Assembly (NCBI RefSeq): GCF_900103985.1
Contig: NZ_FNIE01000014.1
Location: forward strand, 62,001 to 126,000
From: Actinacidiphila guanduensis
GTDB taxonomy: Bacteria; Actinomycetota; Actinomycetes; Streptomycetales; Streptomycetaceae
Reading direction: 5' to 3'
DNA length: 64,000 nucleotides
Program-made: the position numbers and the translations under genes
Shown: piece after piece, positions 59,101 to 64,000 of the stretch
Position numbering within the stretch: position 1 is the first letter of the stretch
Layout of the letters: each line of letters opens with the position of its first letter
The notes under the pieces: generated by a model
Seen by the model: only the letters and a program-made list of their open reading frames with translations
Told to the model about the DNA's origin: nothing
Database searches by the model: none

Positions 59101-59564
59101 GCGGCGGCAAGGTCACCGCGGACGGGATCACCTACAACTGGCCCACCACCGGCGCCGGGCAGCCGGACAACCTGGAGGTCGGCGGGCAGACCATCCCGCA
59201 GCCGACCGGCTCCTCGGGCGCGTTCCTCGGCCTGCTCGGCTCGGCGACCAACGCGCCGACCGACGGCAGCGGCGTCCCCGGCGACCTGACCGTCACCTAC
59301 ACCGACGGCAGCACCGCCAAGGCGACGGTGGCCTTCTCGGACTGGACGCTCAACGGCGGCGGCAGCAAGCCGCTCGCGGGCAACACCGAGGCCATCACCA
59401 CCGACTACCGCAACACCGGCTCCGGCGGCCGCGACACCGTGAAGGCGTACGTCTTCTCGGTGAAGGTGCCGCTCGACCCGAGCAAGACGGTGGCGTCGGT
59501 GACGCTGCCGGTGACCAGCGCCTCCGGCACGGTCCACCTGTTCGCCCTGGGCTACGGCAGCTGA
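56130..59564 (+). CDS. Secreted alpha-mannosidase, glycoside hydrolase family 92
   Basis: The 1144-residue protein has a basic N-terminus and hydrophobic stretch (RRAAVVASLLGLAALPLQSL) ending near ASAASAPS, a signal peptide. The GH92 catalytic unit spans about residues 60-830: VNPLIGTSGAVNTFPGPDVP, MMQWGPDTTPQ, GYEYNSTQISGFSLTHVSGP, GWDTYRSQTQLI (about 450), GYLPLDETDYGC and NDDLGAMSSWYVWSSLGMYP. It needs calcium and removes alpha-mannose from N-glycans. A Ser/Ala-rich insert (about 290-333) interrupts the N-terminal domain. An NEW3-like domain (about 860-950) and a C-terminal module starting ELWPYESNVGVYADG follow. GGAGG at 56117-56121 sets ATG 56130; upstream in-frame ATGs were rejected. 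Confidence 0.93.
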   Translation: MIPLRRPDHPRPTPPPRPRSAALRRAAVVASLLGLAALPLQSLDSASAASAPSPVKDPASLVNPLIGTSGAVNTFPGPDVPFGMMQWGPDTTPQRAQGGGYEYNSTQISGFSLTHVSGPGCDVAGDVPILPVSGALSGNLSNDAATFSHSDEQTAIGSYTVKDASGVTTELTDTTRAGLGRFTFPAGAPANLLLKLSGGATQVDGTRVKVVSNREVSGSVDSGHFCGANNRYTLHFDIKFDRPFTTSGTWVGSTINPDAKSLTAGRTAAPKSSSTQGSTLHEKHFTVPASPSPVIHPSAGAKSTGSATSSPAATGKSSAKASGSASTAPVTGANGMYLTFDTASSTAVTAAVGISYTSDDNAAANLSSEISGWDLNKLKTASHNAWNALLGKIAVGGGSHDQQVEFYTALYHALLHPNVFSDDNGQYMGMDNQVHKLAKGQKAQYANYSGWDTYRSQTQLIATVAPQQTGDIVTSMLNGYDQTGLLPKWASNNGESYVMVGDPGASIIADAYAFGVRNFDTAHALDAMVHEATAPNQDRPGESVRDAKGYLPLDETDYGCCNFYGPVSTQLEYDSADYALASFAKSLGNTADYTKFATRAQDWENVFNPQTGYLQGRNQDGSFAGGFTPGTSNGFVEGTSAQYTPMVPFDLKQLIAARGGSDAYASYLDSLLDNITDPGSTNADLSNEPSLEIPWEYDYVGQPWKTQEAVREAQLGLYFNAPVGSFGNDDLGAMSSWYVWSSLGMYPETPGTDTLALGSPAFPVAKVTFGNGKQVTINAPQAAPDAPYVQSLKVNGKAWNTSWLTAGQFNSARTLDYTLSTQPDTAWASGPDAAPPSDTTGSGRVLAATGPTSDGLIVAPGGSGDATLKLTNLGDKAATVDWTATADSGVTLGTSSGSVSVPASATAQTQVPVTAGSKEGAYTVTFALTDHTSGASLGSATLRVAVAQPGELWPYESNVGVYADGTHFSGGFDDGGWAYSQNALAAAGVTSGGKVTADGITYNWPTTGAGQPDNLEVGGQTIPQPTGSSGAFLGLLGSATNAPTDGSGVPGDLTVTYTDGSTAKATVAFSDWTLNGGGSKPLAGNTEAITTDYRNTGSGGRDTVKAYVFSVKVPLDPSKTVASVTLPVTSASGTVHLFALGYGS

Positions 59565-59578
59565 GCCCATCCCACCGC

Positions 59579-59623
59579 CCGTGCCGTCCCCGGTCCGCTT
59601 CCCGCGAACCGGGGGCGGCACGG
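59579..59623. terminator. Bidirectional terminator between GH92 and XRE genes
   Basis: CCGTGCCGTCCCCGGT (59579-59594) pairs with ACCGGGGGCGGCACGG (59608-59623) at 15 of 16 positions, the odd pair being a G-U wobble in one direction, around a 13-base loop. It starts 14 bases after the GH92 stop. Confidence 0.85.
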
Positions 59624-59675
59624 CCGTTTCCGGGGTGGCACGGCTGCTTCCGGCCTGCGGGAGGCGGATCGGCGG

Positions 59676-60527
59676 CTACGGCCGGTCGGTGTCCGGCGCC
59701 ATGTGCTGCAGGCCGATGACCGACAGCAGTTCGAGCTGCTCGACGGCCTCGGTGCCCGGTGGCGCGGTGAACCACAGGAACCGCTGATGCCCGTCCTCGC
59801 TGACCAGGTTCAGGCAGTTCAGGTCGAGGACGCCGAGCTGCGGGTGGATGATCCGCTTGCGGTCCTCGCGGCGCACGGCGACGTCCTGCTGCTGCCACAG
59901 CGCGGCGAACTCCGCGCTGTAGCGCAGCAGATTGGTCACCACGCTGCGCACGTCCGGGTCGCTGCCGCGGCGCCCGACGACCGAGCGCAGGTCGGCGACG
60001 AAGACGCGCGAGTGGTGGGTGTGCTCGGCCTCCGGGTAGATCAGCCGGGCGTCGGGCTCGGTGAACCACCGGTACAGGAAGCTCGCCCGCAGCCCCTTCG
60101 CCTCGATCGGCGGGCCGAGCAGCGCCCGGGCGAGCGGATTCTGCACGAGGGTGACGTGCAGGTCGGTGATGACCATCGCCGGGGTGCTCTCCAGGCGGTC
60201 GAGCAGGTCGAGCATGCCGGGCTGGACGTGGGCCGCGGCGCCGCTGGTGGGCGGCAGCGGGCGGCCGGCCTGGCGGAAGAGGTAGTCCCGCTCGTCGTGG
60301 CCGAGCCGCAGGGCGCGGGCGAGAGCGGCGAGCATCTGCTCGGAAGGCTGGGCGGTGCCGCGCTCCAGTTGCGTGTAGTAGTCGGTGGAGGCGCCGGCCA
60401 GCTGGGCGACCTCGTCGCGGCGCAGGCCCGGCACGCGCCGGCGCGGCCCGGTGGGCAGCCCCACGTCCGCCGGGCGCACGCGGTCGCGGCGGTTGCGGAG
60501 GAAGGCGGCCATGGCGTCGAGATCCAT
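59676..60527 (-). CDS. XRE-family regulator with MmyB-like ligand domain
   Basis: The 283-residue protein has an XRE HTH (VPGLRRDEVAQLAGASTDYY, TQLERGTAQPSEQMLAALAR; residues about 32-75) followed by the MmyB-like/PAS-type ligand-binding domain: PAMVITDLHVTLVQNPLARA, FLYRWFTEPDARLIYP, LRSVVGRRGSDPDVRSVVTN and FAALWQQQDVAVRREDRKRI. This architecture is common in Streptomyces, usually divergent from an SDR or other oxidoreductase and probably binding a fatty-acid-like ligand. The minus-strand GATACT (60538-60533) ends six bases before the ATG, so the mRNA may be leaderless. One copy of a 59-bp repeat starts four bases upstream. Confidence 0.9.
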   Translation of the reverse strand: MDLDAMAAFLRNRRDRVRPADVGLPTGPRRRVPGLRRDEVAQLAGASTDYYTQLERGTAQPSEQMLAALARALRLGHDERDYLFRQAGRPLPPTSGAAAHVQPGMLDLLDRLESTPAMVITDLHVTLVQNPLARALLGPPIEAKGLRASFLYRWFTEPDARLIYPEAEHTHHSRVFVADLRSVVGRRGSDPDVRSVVTNLLRYSAEFAALWQQQDVAVRREDRKRIIHPQLGVLDLNCLNLVSEDGHQRFLWFTAPPGTEAVEQLELLSVIGLQHMAPDTDRP

Positions 60528-60530
60528 GCC

Positions 60531-60589
60531 CCCAGTATCGGCACGGCCGCGGGCCTTACCCAGGGGTTCCCATCACCAGGGTGGGCGCC
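60531..60589 (+). repeat. 59-bp promoter repeat, copy 1
   Basis: This segment recurs at 62116-62174 in the same orientation with 56 of 59 bases identical. It contains ACCCAGGGG and GGTTCCCATCACC. It sits immediately upstream of the XRE regulator and includes its probable -10 (GATACT on the minus strand). It is a likely site for autoregulation. Confidence 0.9.
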
Positions 60590-60711
60590 GCCGACCCCAC
60601 CACCGCGCGAGCGAATCATGGTTTTGTCTGTGCGGGTGCGACCGCGTACGGCCGCCCCCCAGGGATGCCCGGGAGCCGTCCTGGGAAGAGAACCGGGTCG
60701 GGCCTGGGACG

Positions 60712-61902
60712 TCAGCCCGCCAGCAGGTCGAGCACGGCCCGGTGGTACACGGCGTACACCGTGGGGAGTTCCGCGAGGTGAGCGCGTTCGTCGATGCCGT
60801 GCAGCCCTTCGTACGGCACGCCGAAGCCGGCCGTGGCCCGGATTCCCTCGCCGGCCAGCAGGTTGCCGATGTTCGACGGTCCCGCGGTCTTCGCCCGCAC
60901 GGTCAGTCCGGCCTCGGCGGCCGCGTGCAGCAGGGCGGCGGCGGGCTGCTCGTCCTCGGCCAGGCGGAAGGGCGGCCACGCGGCGACGGGGGTGACCTCG
61001 GTCGGCGCCGGGGCGGGCAGTTCCGCGTCGAGTTCGGCGACGGCCTTGCGGACGAGGGTCTCGGCGTCGTGGGCGTCGAAGGCCGGGGTGGTGCGGATGT
61101 CGATGTTGAGGTCGCACCGGTCGGGAGTGACGGAGAAGCCCTGACCGCCGTGGAAGGACGTGACCGACAGCTTCGGCGGCAGCGGAAAGCCCGAGGTGCC
61201 GTCGGCACCGGGCAGGTCGGCGGCATCCAGGAGGCGTACGAGGTGCGCGGCACGGGAGATGGCGCCGACCACGGTCCGGCCGGCCCCGGAGTGCCCGGCG
61301 GGGGCGTGCACAGCGAGGGAGGCCCGCCAAAGGCCCCGGCCCCCGACCACGACCTCGTCCAGCCCCGGATATCCGATCATCACCCCGGCCGGACGGTCGG
61401 CAGCGGGGTCGGCCAGGTAGGCGCGGGCGCCCCCGAAACCGCCGGTGTGCTCATCGACATCCAGGAGCACGGCCAGTCCGCCGTGCAGGTCGGCGGCGCG
61501 GGGCAGCACGTCGGCGGCGATGTGGCAGAACATCGCCGCGGCGAGCTTGGAGTCGGCCGCGCCACGGCCGAGCAGCCAGCCGTCCACGACATCTCCGGAG
61601 GCCGGCGGGAAGGACCAGGCGGTCTCGTCGCCGTACGGGGCGGTGTCCACGCACGCGTCGAGCGTCCACCAGGGCCCCGGGTGCCCGCCGGGTATCTCCA
61701 CGAGCAGCCCCACCAGGGCGTCTTCGCCGTCGTGGAGGCGCCGGTGCGGCAGGCCACGGGCGGCGAGCCAGTCCTCCAGCACGGTGAGAACGGGCCCGTA
61801 GTCGTCGATCCCGCCCCGGCTGGGCCGCCGGATCAACTCCTGGGCCAGCTCGACCACGGACGCCGTACGGGCCTCGGCCGGCCGCTGAAGATCCTCGTTC
61901 AC
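60712..61902 (-). CDS. M20 family metallohydrolase
   Basis: The 396-residue protein follows the M20/ArgE-DapE plan: a catalytic domain (about 1-180 and 290-396) with an inserted dimerisation domain (about 182-290, GGRGLWRASLAVHAPAGHSG). Motifs are WTLDACVDTAPYGDETAW, LLGRGAADSKLAAAMF with the bridging Asp, LDVDEHTGGFGGARAY, DIRTTPAFD and PYEGLHGIDERAHLAE with the last His. The first motif normally reads GHxD; here the metal-binding His is Cys (codon TGC), and the EE pair reads EH. It may be a subfamily feature or altered metal use. The GTG at 61902 follows GGGAG. The gene lies between two 59-bp repeats. Confidence 0.82.
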   Translation of the reverse strand: MNEDLQRPAEARTASVVELAQELIRRPSRGGIDDYGPVLTVLEDWLAARGLPHRRLHDGEDALVGLLVEIPGGHPGPWWTLDACVDTAPYGDETAWSFPPASGDVVDGWLLGRGAADSKLAAAMFCHIAADVLPRAADLHGGLAVLLDVDEHTGGFGGARAYLADPAADRPAGVMIGYPGLDEVVVGGRGLWRASLAVHAPAGHSGAGRTVVGAISRAAHLVRLLDAADLPGADGTSGFPLPPKLSVTSFHGGQGFSVTPDRCDLNIDIRTTPAFDAHDAETLVRKAVAELDAELPAPAPTEVTPVAAWPPFRLAEDEQPAAALLHAAAEAGLTVRAKTAGPSNIGNLLAGEGIRATAGFGVPYEGLHGIDERAHLAELPTVYAVYHRAVLDLLAG

Positions 61903-62259
61903 GCCTCTCCCCACTCCGTACCGGCAGCGCACCGACGCCTTCGATCGTCGCCACCGGCCGCGCGGACGCGCACGCCTCACGCCCATGGTGGACCAGGCCC
62001 ACCGCCGCCTCGCGACTGCCTGAAACGCCGCAGTCGCCCCCCACTCCGAGGAGCGAAGGCGGCGGCACCACCGCGGCGGTCCCCGACACGACGAAGAAGC
62101 GCTCCAGCGGGTACACCCAGTATCCGCATGGCCGCGGGCCTTACCCAGGGGTTCCCATCACCTGGGTGGGCGCCACCTCGCTCATCGCGCGCCGCGGGGC
62201 GAGCATCGGAAGGGAAGGCGCCCACCGCGCCGACGAACCACCCCGGAGAAAGGCACCCC
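61903..62259 (+). other. Upstream region of M20 and SDR genes
   Basis: No gene is supported in this divergent gap. It contains copy 2 of the 59-bp repeat (62116-62174) and, just before the SDR, GGAGAAAGG (62245-62253) as ribosome binding site. Minus-strand frames through 61910-62116 do not match a known protein. Confidence 0.5.
62116..62174 (+). repeat. 59-bp promoter repeat, copy 2
   Basis: This is the second copy of the segment at 60531-60589, with three mismatches. In this copy ACCCAG (62143-62148) and CTGGGT (62162-62167) form a perfect inverted repeat with a 13-base centre. It lies 86 bases before the SDR start and is a candidate operator for the XRE regulator encoded at 59676-60527. 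Confidence 0.9.
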
Positions 62260-63048
62260 ATGTCCACCAGCACTCCCAGGATCGCCCTCGTCACCGGCGG
62301 CAACCGCGGACTCGGCCGGGCCGTCGTGGAGGCGCTCGCCGCCGACGGCATCGACGTCGTCTTCACCTACCGCTCGCACGAGGACGAGGCCAAGGAGGTC
62401 ACCGAGGCGGTGGCCGCGCTCGGCCGCCGGGCCGAGGCGCTGCAGCTCGACACCACGCAGACCGGCGCCTTCGCGGACTTCGCCGCGACCCTGCGGCAGA
62501 AGCTGCGGGACGCCTGGGGCCGCGAGAGCTTCGACATCCTGGTCAACAACGCCGGCTTCTCCGGCAGCACCGTCCTCGGCTCCACCGACGAGGAGACCAT
62601 CGACCAGCTCTTCGCCGTCCACTACAAGGGCGTCTACCTGCTCACCCAGGCGCTGGCCACCGCGCCCGAGGGCAGCACGCCGCTGCTGGCCGACGGCGGC
62701 CGGGTGGTGAACCTGTCCACGGGTCTGGCCCGCTTCGTCACCAAGCCGTACGCCGTGTACGCGTCGATGAAGGGCGCCGTGGAGGTGCTGACCCGCTACT
62801 GGGCCGCCGAACTGGGCGAGCGCGGCATCAGCGTCAACACCATCGCCCCCGGGCCGGTGGCCACCGACTTCGCCGGCGGCTACCTGCGGGCCAGCGACGA
62901 GGTCCAGCAGGCCATGACCGGCATGACCGCCCTGGGCCGGATCGCCCACGCCGAGGACATCGGCCCGGCGGTGGCCGCGCTGGTCTCCGAGGGCACCGCC
63001 TGGATCACCGGCCAGCGGATCGAGGCCAGCGGCGGCTTCCGCCTCTGA
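62260..63048 (+). CDS. SDR family oxidoreductase (3-oxoacyl-ACP reductase-like)
   Basis: The 262-residue classical SDR starts MSTSTPRIALVTGGNRGLGR (TGxxxGxG), has FTYRSHEDEAKEV (NADP-type Arg/Ser), FDILVNNAGFSGSTVLGS, VVNLSTGLARFV with the catalytic Ser, YASMK as Tyr-x-x-x-Lys, and NTIAPGPVATDFAGG. Its order and KSFG/RESFDILVNNAG region resemble the SDR at 31633. The ATG at 62260 follows GGAGAAAGG. A tautomerase gene follows 73 bases downstream. Control by the MmyB-like XRE regulator is likely from the shared 59-bp element. Confidence 0.9.
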   Translation: MSTSTPRIALVTGGNRGLGRAVVEALAADGIDVVFTYRSHEDEAKEVTEAVAALGRRAEALQLDTTQTGAFADFAATLRQKLRDAWGRESFDILVNNAGFSGSTVLGSTDEETIDQLFAVHYKGVYLLTQALATAPEGSTPLLADGGRVVNLSTGLARFVTKPYAVYASMKGAVEVLTRYWAAELGERGISVNTIAPGPVATDFAGGYLRASDEVQQAMTGMTALGRIAHAEDIGPAVAALVSEGTAWITGQRIEASGGFRL

Positions 63049-63121
63049 GCCGGCCCGTACGGCCCCATCGCCCCTCCCTGCACGACCCCAGGACCGCTCC
63101 CCGTACCGAAGGAGACCCGCC

Positions 63122-63340
63122 ATGCCGTTCGCCCACTTCAAGGTGCCCGCGGGCACGCTGACCGCCGAGCAGAAGAAGCAGATCGTCGACCGCACCACCG
63201 ACCTGTACGCCGAGATCTACGGTGAGCGGGCCCGCCCCACCACCCTGGTCCTGGTGGACGAGGTCCCCGACGGCGGCTGGGGCATCGGCGGCACGGTGCT
63301 CACCAAAGCCATGCTGACCGGCGAGCCGGGCACCCCGTGA
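63122..63340 (+). CDS. Tautomerase family protein (4-oxalocrotonate tautomerase-like)
   Basis: The 72-residue protein starts Met-Pro; removal of Met exposes Pro1, the catalytic base of this superfamily. The pattern PFAHFKVPAGTLTAEQKKQI, VDRTTDLYAEIYGERARPTT and DEVPDGGWGIGGTVLT fits small 4-OT-like subunits that assemble as hexamers. The substrate is unknown. It follows the SDR on the same strand and may share its transcript. GAAGGAG lies before the start. Confidence 0.9.
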   Translation: MPFAHFKVPAGTLTAEQKKQIVDRTTDLYAEIYGERARPTTLVLVDEVPDGGWGIGGTVLTKAMLTGEPGTP

Positions 63341-63352
63341 CGCCCACCCCCG

Positions 63353-63387
63353 GGGTGCGGGCCGCCTGTTCCGGGCGCCCCGCACCC
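63353..63387 (+). terminator. Hairpin after the tautomerase gene
   Basis: GGGTGCGGG (63353-63361) pairs perfectly with CCCGCACCC (63379-63387) around a 17-base loop, 12 bases after the stop codon. Confidence 0.7.
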
Positions 63388-63701
63388 GCGGCGTGACCGC
63401 GACGGCCCGCACCGTACCCGCACGACCGCCGAGCCGGGGCACAGCTGCCCGCTGCCAGCGGGCGGTGCCGGTCCATACGATCGCCCGCGCCGCGGGTGGC
63501 GGCTCGATGGCCGCCCGGCGCTCATCTGCTGCCCGGAACCGACCGTATGCCCCGGAGGCTCGCAGGGGCCGTCCGGCAGGGGGCGAGGCCCGTGCGGCGC
63601 TTCCGGCCGGGAGCGTCAAACCTTCGGCGTCGCGTTTCCCGCGCCCGGCGGCGGTCAGGCGAGGGTGGTACGCAGAGCGTCGACCGATGGGAGGCGGCAC
63701 C
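63388..63701. other. Intergenic region
   Basis: About 310 bases of GC-rich DNA with no supported gene, clear promoter or repeat. GGGAGG at about 63689-63694 is the ribosome binding site of the following small gene. Confidence 0.5.
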
Positions 63702-63902
63702 ATGACCGGCCACGACGAGCAGCACCGTAAGGCCCGCGAGGACCACGGGAACCGTGAGCACGCGGAGCGGGAGGAGACCGAGCAGGACGAGGGGCGGCGG
63801 GTCGTCGACAAGAGCGTGCCGACGCCTGAAGGGCTCACCTCGCCGGACGAGACGGTGGACGACGCCCCCGCGGAGCCCCGGCAGTCGAAGGACTACGCCT
63901 GA
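63702..63902 (+). CDS. Small hydrophilic hypothetical protein
   Basis: The 66-residue protein starts MTGHDEQHRKAREDHGNREH and is highly charged throughout, with many Glu, Asp, Arg and His and no hydrophobic core. It then ends in a Pro/Ser/Asp-rich tail. It is probably disordered. GGGAGG lies eight bases before the ATG, which supports real translation. I do not recognise a family; small acidic proteins of this type are frequent in Streptomyces. The last 98 bases of the window after it hold no recognised feature. Confidence 0.6.
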   Translation: MTGHDEQHRKAREDHGNREHAEREETEQDEGRRVVDKSVPTPEGLTSPDETVDDAPAEPRQSKDYA

Positions 63903-64000
63903 GGGTGAGGGCCACCTGTCAGGGCGGCCTCGGGGCCGGGTCCGTGCGCCCGCGGAAGGTGGGGCTGCCTGTCCGGGCGGGCCGCCTTCGCTGCCGGGCT

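Follow-up and report, generated by a model that had tools for sequence, protein, structure and literature searches.

An M20-family hydrolase gene between two copies of a promoter–operator site in Actinacidiphila guanduensis: a probable insertion into a divergent XRE/SDR control region

The stretch of Actinacidiphila guanduensis DNA analyzed here (the window, 64,000 nucleotides) carries an XRE-type regulator gene and a short-chain dehydrogenase (SDR) gene that point away from each other and are separated by an M20-family hydrolase gene, with a tautomerase gene following the SDR gene.

59676–60527, minus strand: XRE regulator of the MmyB/MltR type, 283 aa (PF17765, MLTR_LBD, E = 2e-40; HTH_31, E = 6.3e-12)
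60712–61902, minus strand: M20-family hydrolase gene (M20), 396 aa (PF01546, E = 5.4e-18; M20_dimer, PF07687, E = 2.8e-14)
62260–63048, plus strand: SDR oxidoreductase, 262 aa (Pfam adh_short_C2, E = 2.2e-49)
63122–63340, plus strand: tautomerase-family protein, 72 aa (PF01361, E = 1.6e-19)

The XRE protein harbors both the N-terminal helix-turn-helix (HTH) and the C-terminal MLTR_LBD domain that mark the MmyB/MltR family, and the SDR is, by its Pfam match, a classical short-chain dehydrogenase. Among the NCBIfam matches listed, none gives XRE, M20, or SDR a family-level name above the cut-off. The available text of Xu et al. 2012 (PMC3406030) describes regulator–SDR pairs with a common upstream region as frequent in the MmyB/MltR family, reports that an SDR accompanies the regulator in six of eight cases in Saccharopolyspora erythraea, and presents MmyB as turning its genes on. 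The window locus and the divergent regulator–SDR arrangement of that text have an XRE-type HTH and an MLTR ligand-binding domain in common; unlike that arrangement, the window holds M20 and a second promoter/operator copy between the regulator and the SDR gene. The tautomerase gene, which in the window lies directly beyond the SDR gene, recurs near XRE in many relatives, and its product may belong to the same pathway as the SDR.

M20 is bracketed by two copies of a direct repeat.

60531–60589, minus strand: repeat copy 1, containing the XRE promoter
62116–62174, no strand assigned: repeat copy 2, upstream of the SDR gene

As the preliminary description of this DNA had reported, the copies share 56 of 59 bases and lie in the same orientation, the first abutting the XRE start and the second preceding the SDR gene at 62260. 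The near edge of copy 1 is 3 bp from the XRE ATG (60527–60525, minus strand), on its upstream side. At 60534–60539 the copy has AGTATC, which is GATACT when read on the minus strand and lies 6 nt ahead of the ATG; copy 1 had already been described as holding the likely −10 element of XRE. With this element just before the ATG, the XRE start is apparently leaderless. Copy 2 contains a leftward GATACT −10 at 62124–62119, facing M20. GATACT is unbroken in both copies, and the three differences between them spare the −10 and one arm of the operator candidate described below. Consensus scans of 60400–62300 returned no promoter with the sigma-70 consensus, which suits actinomycetes poorly, and no terminator; Rfam at its gathering threshold gave no match in 59500–64000.

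A genome-wide search for further copies, which the preliminary description had suggested, was run with a 121-base query around copy 1 against the organism's own genome (8,220,839 bases, 8.2 Mb, in 33 contigs; E ≤ 0.001). It returned two places, copy 1 and copy 2, the latter over 62 bases at 94% identity (E = 2.3e-20), and thus, at the sensitivity of this search, the repeat is neither a chance likeness nor dispersed. The pattern ACCCAGG-N11-CCTGGGT, allowing one mismatch, recovered both copies and one site on another contig of the same genome, while its reversed control pattern found no place there; another operator-like pattern, for which two mismatches were tolerated, recovered both copies and one other site. 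Direct repeats around a gene do resemble target-site duplications, and one might therefore read the pair as members of a dispersed intergenic repeat or mobile-element family. We give this reading a negligible probability: the finding of two places only refutes it for the organism's own genome at E ≤ 0.001, the copies overlap a promoter and a palindrome that are conserved at related loci, and nine additional open frames that overlap 60041–62366, a stretch that includes the insert, gave no Pfam match, and hence neither a transposase nor a recombinase domain.

The usual arrangement was held at the outset to be an XRE gene divergent from an SDR gene with one promoter, and related genomes bear this out. 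In five relatives, XRE (63–79% identical) and SDR (73–84%) genes are directly divergent with nothing of M20 between them: Acrocarpospora phusangensis (L003), Streptomyces sp. SID3212 (L004), Saccharopolyspora soli (L005), and genomes G401 (L048/L105) and G313 (L106). At these empty sites the offset from the XRE start to the SDR match is 151 (L004), 136 (L005), and 149 (G401) for matches starting at SDR residue 1. For matches starting further in, it is 139 (L003, from residue 6) and 145 (G313, from residue 8), which extrapolate to ~154 and ~166 at the start codon. The corresponding copy-2 interval in the window is 148, and the ancestral region can be delimited accordingly.

62113–62259, no strand assigned: XRE/SDR divergent promoter region, ancestral length 147 bp, from empty-site offsets of 136–151

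When copy 2 and its SDR side were aligned to the three empty sites tested (L003, L004, and L005), none of 300 shuffles did as well. Copy 1 aligned significantly to the empty sites of L003 and L005, with no significant alignment to that of L004 (local p = 0.36). By inspection, each of the five empty sites has one XRE-side promoter with a palindrome. More broadly, the nearest divergent match within 300 bp of XRE was an SDR homologue at 32 of 50 related loci, a tautomerase at 8, and neither at 10. These counts derive from 66 other XRE loci, 16 of which, at 58% identity to XRE or less, were dropped from the operator and neighbor counts and still checked for M20; 30 of the 75 listed XRE places were obtained as loci. 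The empty sites are phylogenetically distant, close SDR relatives being present in three other genomes of 394, all of another genus, and a search of 281 class genomes with the SDR for more distant empty sites returned the window alone. In one related locus (L006) the tautomerase gene lies between XRE and a close SDR relative, and around another close SDR relative (L107, in G203) the 1.5 kb fetched contains no XRE match exceeding 58%.

Each repeat copy contains a 21-bp palindrome-like site that is a candidate operator. The copy 1 site (60560–60580) is centered 43 bp upstream of the XRE ATG and, on the minus strand toward XRE, reads CCTGGTGATGGGAACCCCTGG; the copy 2 site (62145–62165) reads CCAGGTGATGGGAACCCCTGG on the same strand and in the same direction. 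Of 50 other XRE relatives, 45 have an upstream site of this CCAGGGG-N7-CCCCTGG type that matches the consensus at 12 or more of 14 positions, and 23 have one matching at all 14; a good palindrome is absent upstream of 5. The best site is centered 43–54 bp before the start in 47 of the 50, the distances of 52–54 bp being approximate since the start is extrapolated in relatives aligned from residue 6. A weight matrix was built on the sites of 49 relatives and none from the window (L067, with 8 of 14 matches, was excluded; L003, off register, and the poor-looking L041 and L110 were kept). Run over both strands of the whole window, this matrix gave its highest score to copy 2 (22.7 bits), followed by copy 1 (19.0 bits), with the next-best place at 9.8 bits. 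Most matrix-building sites score 20 to 33; relative to these, the two window copies score low or slightly under the range. Within the operator the copies differ once, by a mismatch in the SDR-side arm of copy 1; because copy 2 and the L005 empty site have CATCACCTGGGT in common at this arm, it is the copy 1 operator that looks derived. By eye, seemingly many XRE relatives (L003–L110) have an extra AACCAG-like half-site located ~20 bp past the operator toward the SDR, one not seen at either window copy. For MmyB, the available text of Xu et al. 2012 (PMC3406030) mentions only "B-boxes", and among literature titles, in the part of that literature covered, we recognized none as describing the CCAGGGG-N7-CCCCTGG motif, for which we make no claim of unpublished status.

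The DNA between the copies is of foreign origin and has an identifiable source type. Most of it matches a locus of a congeneric genome (G026), in which M20 is preceded by a gene that we refer to as gene X.

60681–62109, minus strand: inserted DNA, 87.7% identical to congener G026 (BLAST extent and alignments)
61910–62107, minus strand: decayed 3′ remnant of gene X, codons 201–267 (tblastn, 75% aa identity)
60592–60681, no strand assigned: spacer of 90 bp from copy 1 to the donor-like DNA, matching neither donor-type loci nor target

The match to G026 spans 1.43 kb; it ends a few bases before copy 2 and, at the other side, ~30 bases past the M20 stop. Beyond that point, the spacer (60592–60681) has no significant similarity to five donor-type loci, and its part at 60592–60665 has none to the copy-2 flank or to three empty sites. 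M20 has a GTG start preceded by GGGGAG, and its product is 90% identical to the G026 protein. The gene order in G026 is gene X, M20, a short frame, and a cyclase gene. Gene X, of 267 aa, has a weak HTH_31 match below the Pfam cut-off and is a putative regulator. The cyclase comes closest to the albusnodin/ikarugamycin family (237.8 bits, below the cut-off of 300; E = 2.3e-70), and we read the short frame after M20 as a candidate lasso precursor, so that "lasso-type" is a likely, not a certain, label for the G026 cluster. In that genome, ~5135–9303 of L101 (G026:C28) has the look of a probable lasso-peptide-type cluster with an asparagine-synthase-type cyclase. The window resembles the G026 cluster in its M20 protein and in retaining a remnant of the preceding gene X; unlike in G026, a cyclase gene was not found beside M20. 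A donor cluster elsewhere in the organism's own genome was considered and rejected, as the genome gave a single, distant cyclase match (36%, E = 2.4e-15).

Of 394 family genomes, 29, including that of the window, contain M20 relatives at E ≤ 1e-150. At 12 of the 28 other M20 loci, M20 is preceded by gene X aligned over 200 residues or more, and a lasso-type cyclase lies inside the fetched flank in 5 of the 28. The fetched flanks of these 28 loci (~1.5 kb, less at contig ends) contain no match to XRE or the SDR, and no match to M20 occurs at any of the 66 other XRE loci, of which 50 exceed 58% identity to XRE. The XRE–M20–SDR order, whose occurrence in many relatives with unrelated promoter sequences had been named in advance as evidence against an insertion, is thus absent from both sets. 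Canonical M20 proteins have the metal-ligand motifs HxD, DEE, and EPT. In the subfamily of the window protein, CxD replaces HxD and DEH replaces DEE in all 29 aligned sequences (the window and 28 relatives, L074–L101), and YPG replaces EPT in all 23 of the 29 in which this third motif was read. The subfamily may therefore use an unusual metal site; homology to the M20 family stands, without any assumption of canonical chemistry.

Of gene X, the window retains just the final ~200 bp, and this remnant has lost its stop codon, carries indels, and shows an excess of second-position changes. With the stop lost, the remnant frame runs over M20 in another frame (61451–62116, minus strand; 221 aa), starting at a GTG beside the copy 2 promoter and having no Pfam match; this open frame is probably meaningless, though it would be transcribed. 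Direct repeats of 59 bp readily permit deletion of the DNA between them, and the locus could conceivably be read in reverse, with XRE–M20–SDR ancestral and M20 lost from the relatives by recombination between the repeats. We consider this very improbable: none of the 66 other XRE loci has M20, the recurrent neighbor of M20 is instead gene X, with a lasso-type cyclase in the 5 loci noted above, and the truncated remnant indicates that the M20 piece derives from a gene X context. Indeed, a truncated gene X together with an identifiable donor type gives the event its direction, that of insertion, and with the empty sites supports the original proposal that M20 was inserted into the XRE/SDR promoter.

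As to how the insertion came about, M20 is the sole domain protein of the insert, and none of eight inverted-repeat pairs of at least 14 nt in 60500–62260 joins the insert ends. Identity between copies 1 and 2 ends at both repeat edges, and alignment of their SDR-side flanks is not significant (local p = 0.06, global p = 0.87; 1000 shuffles). A longer duplication with decayed flanks is unsupported, since comparisons among the copy flanks and three empty sites give nothing significant beyond 59 bp. In a target-site duplication, a direct repeat of the target lies on either side of the inserted DNA, and the locus resembles this in having a direct target repeat that flanks foreign DNA. It differs from a target-site duplication made by a transposon in that ~60 bp is long for one and in that no transposase domain was found in the insert. 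One possible route to the duplication is end joining at a staggered break with fill-in of its ends.

The two genes carried by the insert have fared differently since. At first and second codon positions, 13 of 108 are changed in the gene X remnant and 7 of 566 in M20 (Fisher p = 7e-7), the positions scored being those invariant in seven relatives. In the relatives themselves, for which six reference sequences were used, the gene X end shows 0 to 4 changes in 110–114 such positions and M20 shows from 4 of 570 (G026) to 26 of 592. These proportions, together with the lost stop codon and the indels, show that the gene X remnant decays while M20 is kept. The remnant also provides a clock for the repeat. 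The copies differ at 3 of 59 positions (5%), whereas ~24% (2 × 12%) would be expected had they drifted neutrally since the remnant began to decay; the probability of 3/59 is 1e-4 at 24%, 0.017 at 15%, and 0.15 at 10%, and the clock rests on a remnant of ~200 bp, with a Wilson interval for 13/108 of 7–20%, or 14–39% expected difference when doubled. This comparison favors selection on both copies, which are likely functional operators.

Equal likeness between the copies would also be produced by gene conversion or by a later duplication. The same insertion might thus have been followed by conversion, or the operator duplication might be younger than the decay of the remnant, with M20 a passenger outside the regulon. 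In favor of this, gene conversion can act between direct repeats separated by 1.6 kb, M20 has its own ribosome-binding site, and the clock assumes that the remnant has decayed from the insertion onward, whereas the end of gene X may have been broken earlier. Against this stand the constraint on M20, which is about as strong as in the in-cluster G026 copy (7/566 vs. 4/570 at positions 1 and 2) despite the loss of the upstream gene, the unbroken leftward −10 of copy 2, and the distribution of the three copy differences, which leaves the −10 and one operator arm untouched. M20 remains constrained without the gene that natively precedes it and should therefore be transcribed from some promoter. 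We judge the passenger reading unlikely, though less so than the alternatives discussed above.

Collectively, the data support insertion with a duplicated control site, an explanation that we hold, as a whole, with good confidence. The ancestral locus would have consisted of an MmyB/MltR-type XRE gene and an SDR gene divergent from one promoter region of ~150 bp with one palindromic operator. A piece of ~1.5 kb, of the lasso-peptide-type cluster kind and containing the 3′ end of gene X and the whole of M20, would have inserted beside the XRE start codon, accompanied by duplication of ~60 bp of XRE promoter and operator. In donor-type loci, M20 follows gene X after a short gap and therefore presumably depends on the gene X promoter. 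In the window, M20 has been separated from its native upstream gene and copy 2 points into it; both M20 and the SDR gene are therefore probably served by copy 2, with copy 1 serving XRE. The preliminary description, which had assigned each gene its own control copy, would thus be right for copy 1 and XRE; for copy 2 it needs amendment, as the promoter there faces M20 as well as the SDR gene.

On this explanation of an insertion with duplicated control, the XRE protein would bind both copies. Copy 2 would retain its ancestral role toward the SDR gene and, in the other direction, would read leftward into M20, the transcript reaching M20 through the gene X remnant with a leader of ~210 bases. M20 and the SDR gene would then have one operator in common and hence be co-regulated. 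M20 has, to judge from the sequence features described, probably been taken into the regulator's circuit. A bolder extension, which we put forward tentatively and regard as possible rather than probable, is that M20 is a domesticated orphan of a lasso-type cluster. A single event would have placed it under a small-molecule-sensing MmyB/MltR regulator together with the SDR and the tautomerase, both operators and M20 would since have been kept by selection, and M20 might act in the SDR pathway or on its inducer.

The locus is an instructive case of probable regulatory capture, ordinary in its parts, and not a new kind of system. Its CCAGGGG-N7-CCCCTGG site provides a conserved 21-bp operator candidate for a large family of actinomycete regulators. 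In addition, the locus offers a readable instance of how a regulon may grow by insertion, in which the donor context, the empty target, the relic of a neighboring gene, and the duplicated operator candidate are all visible.
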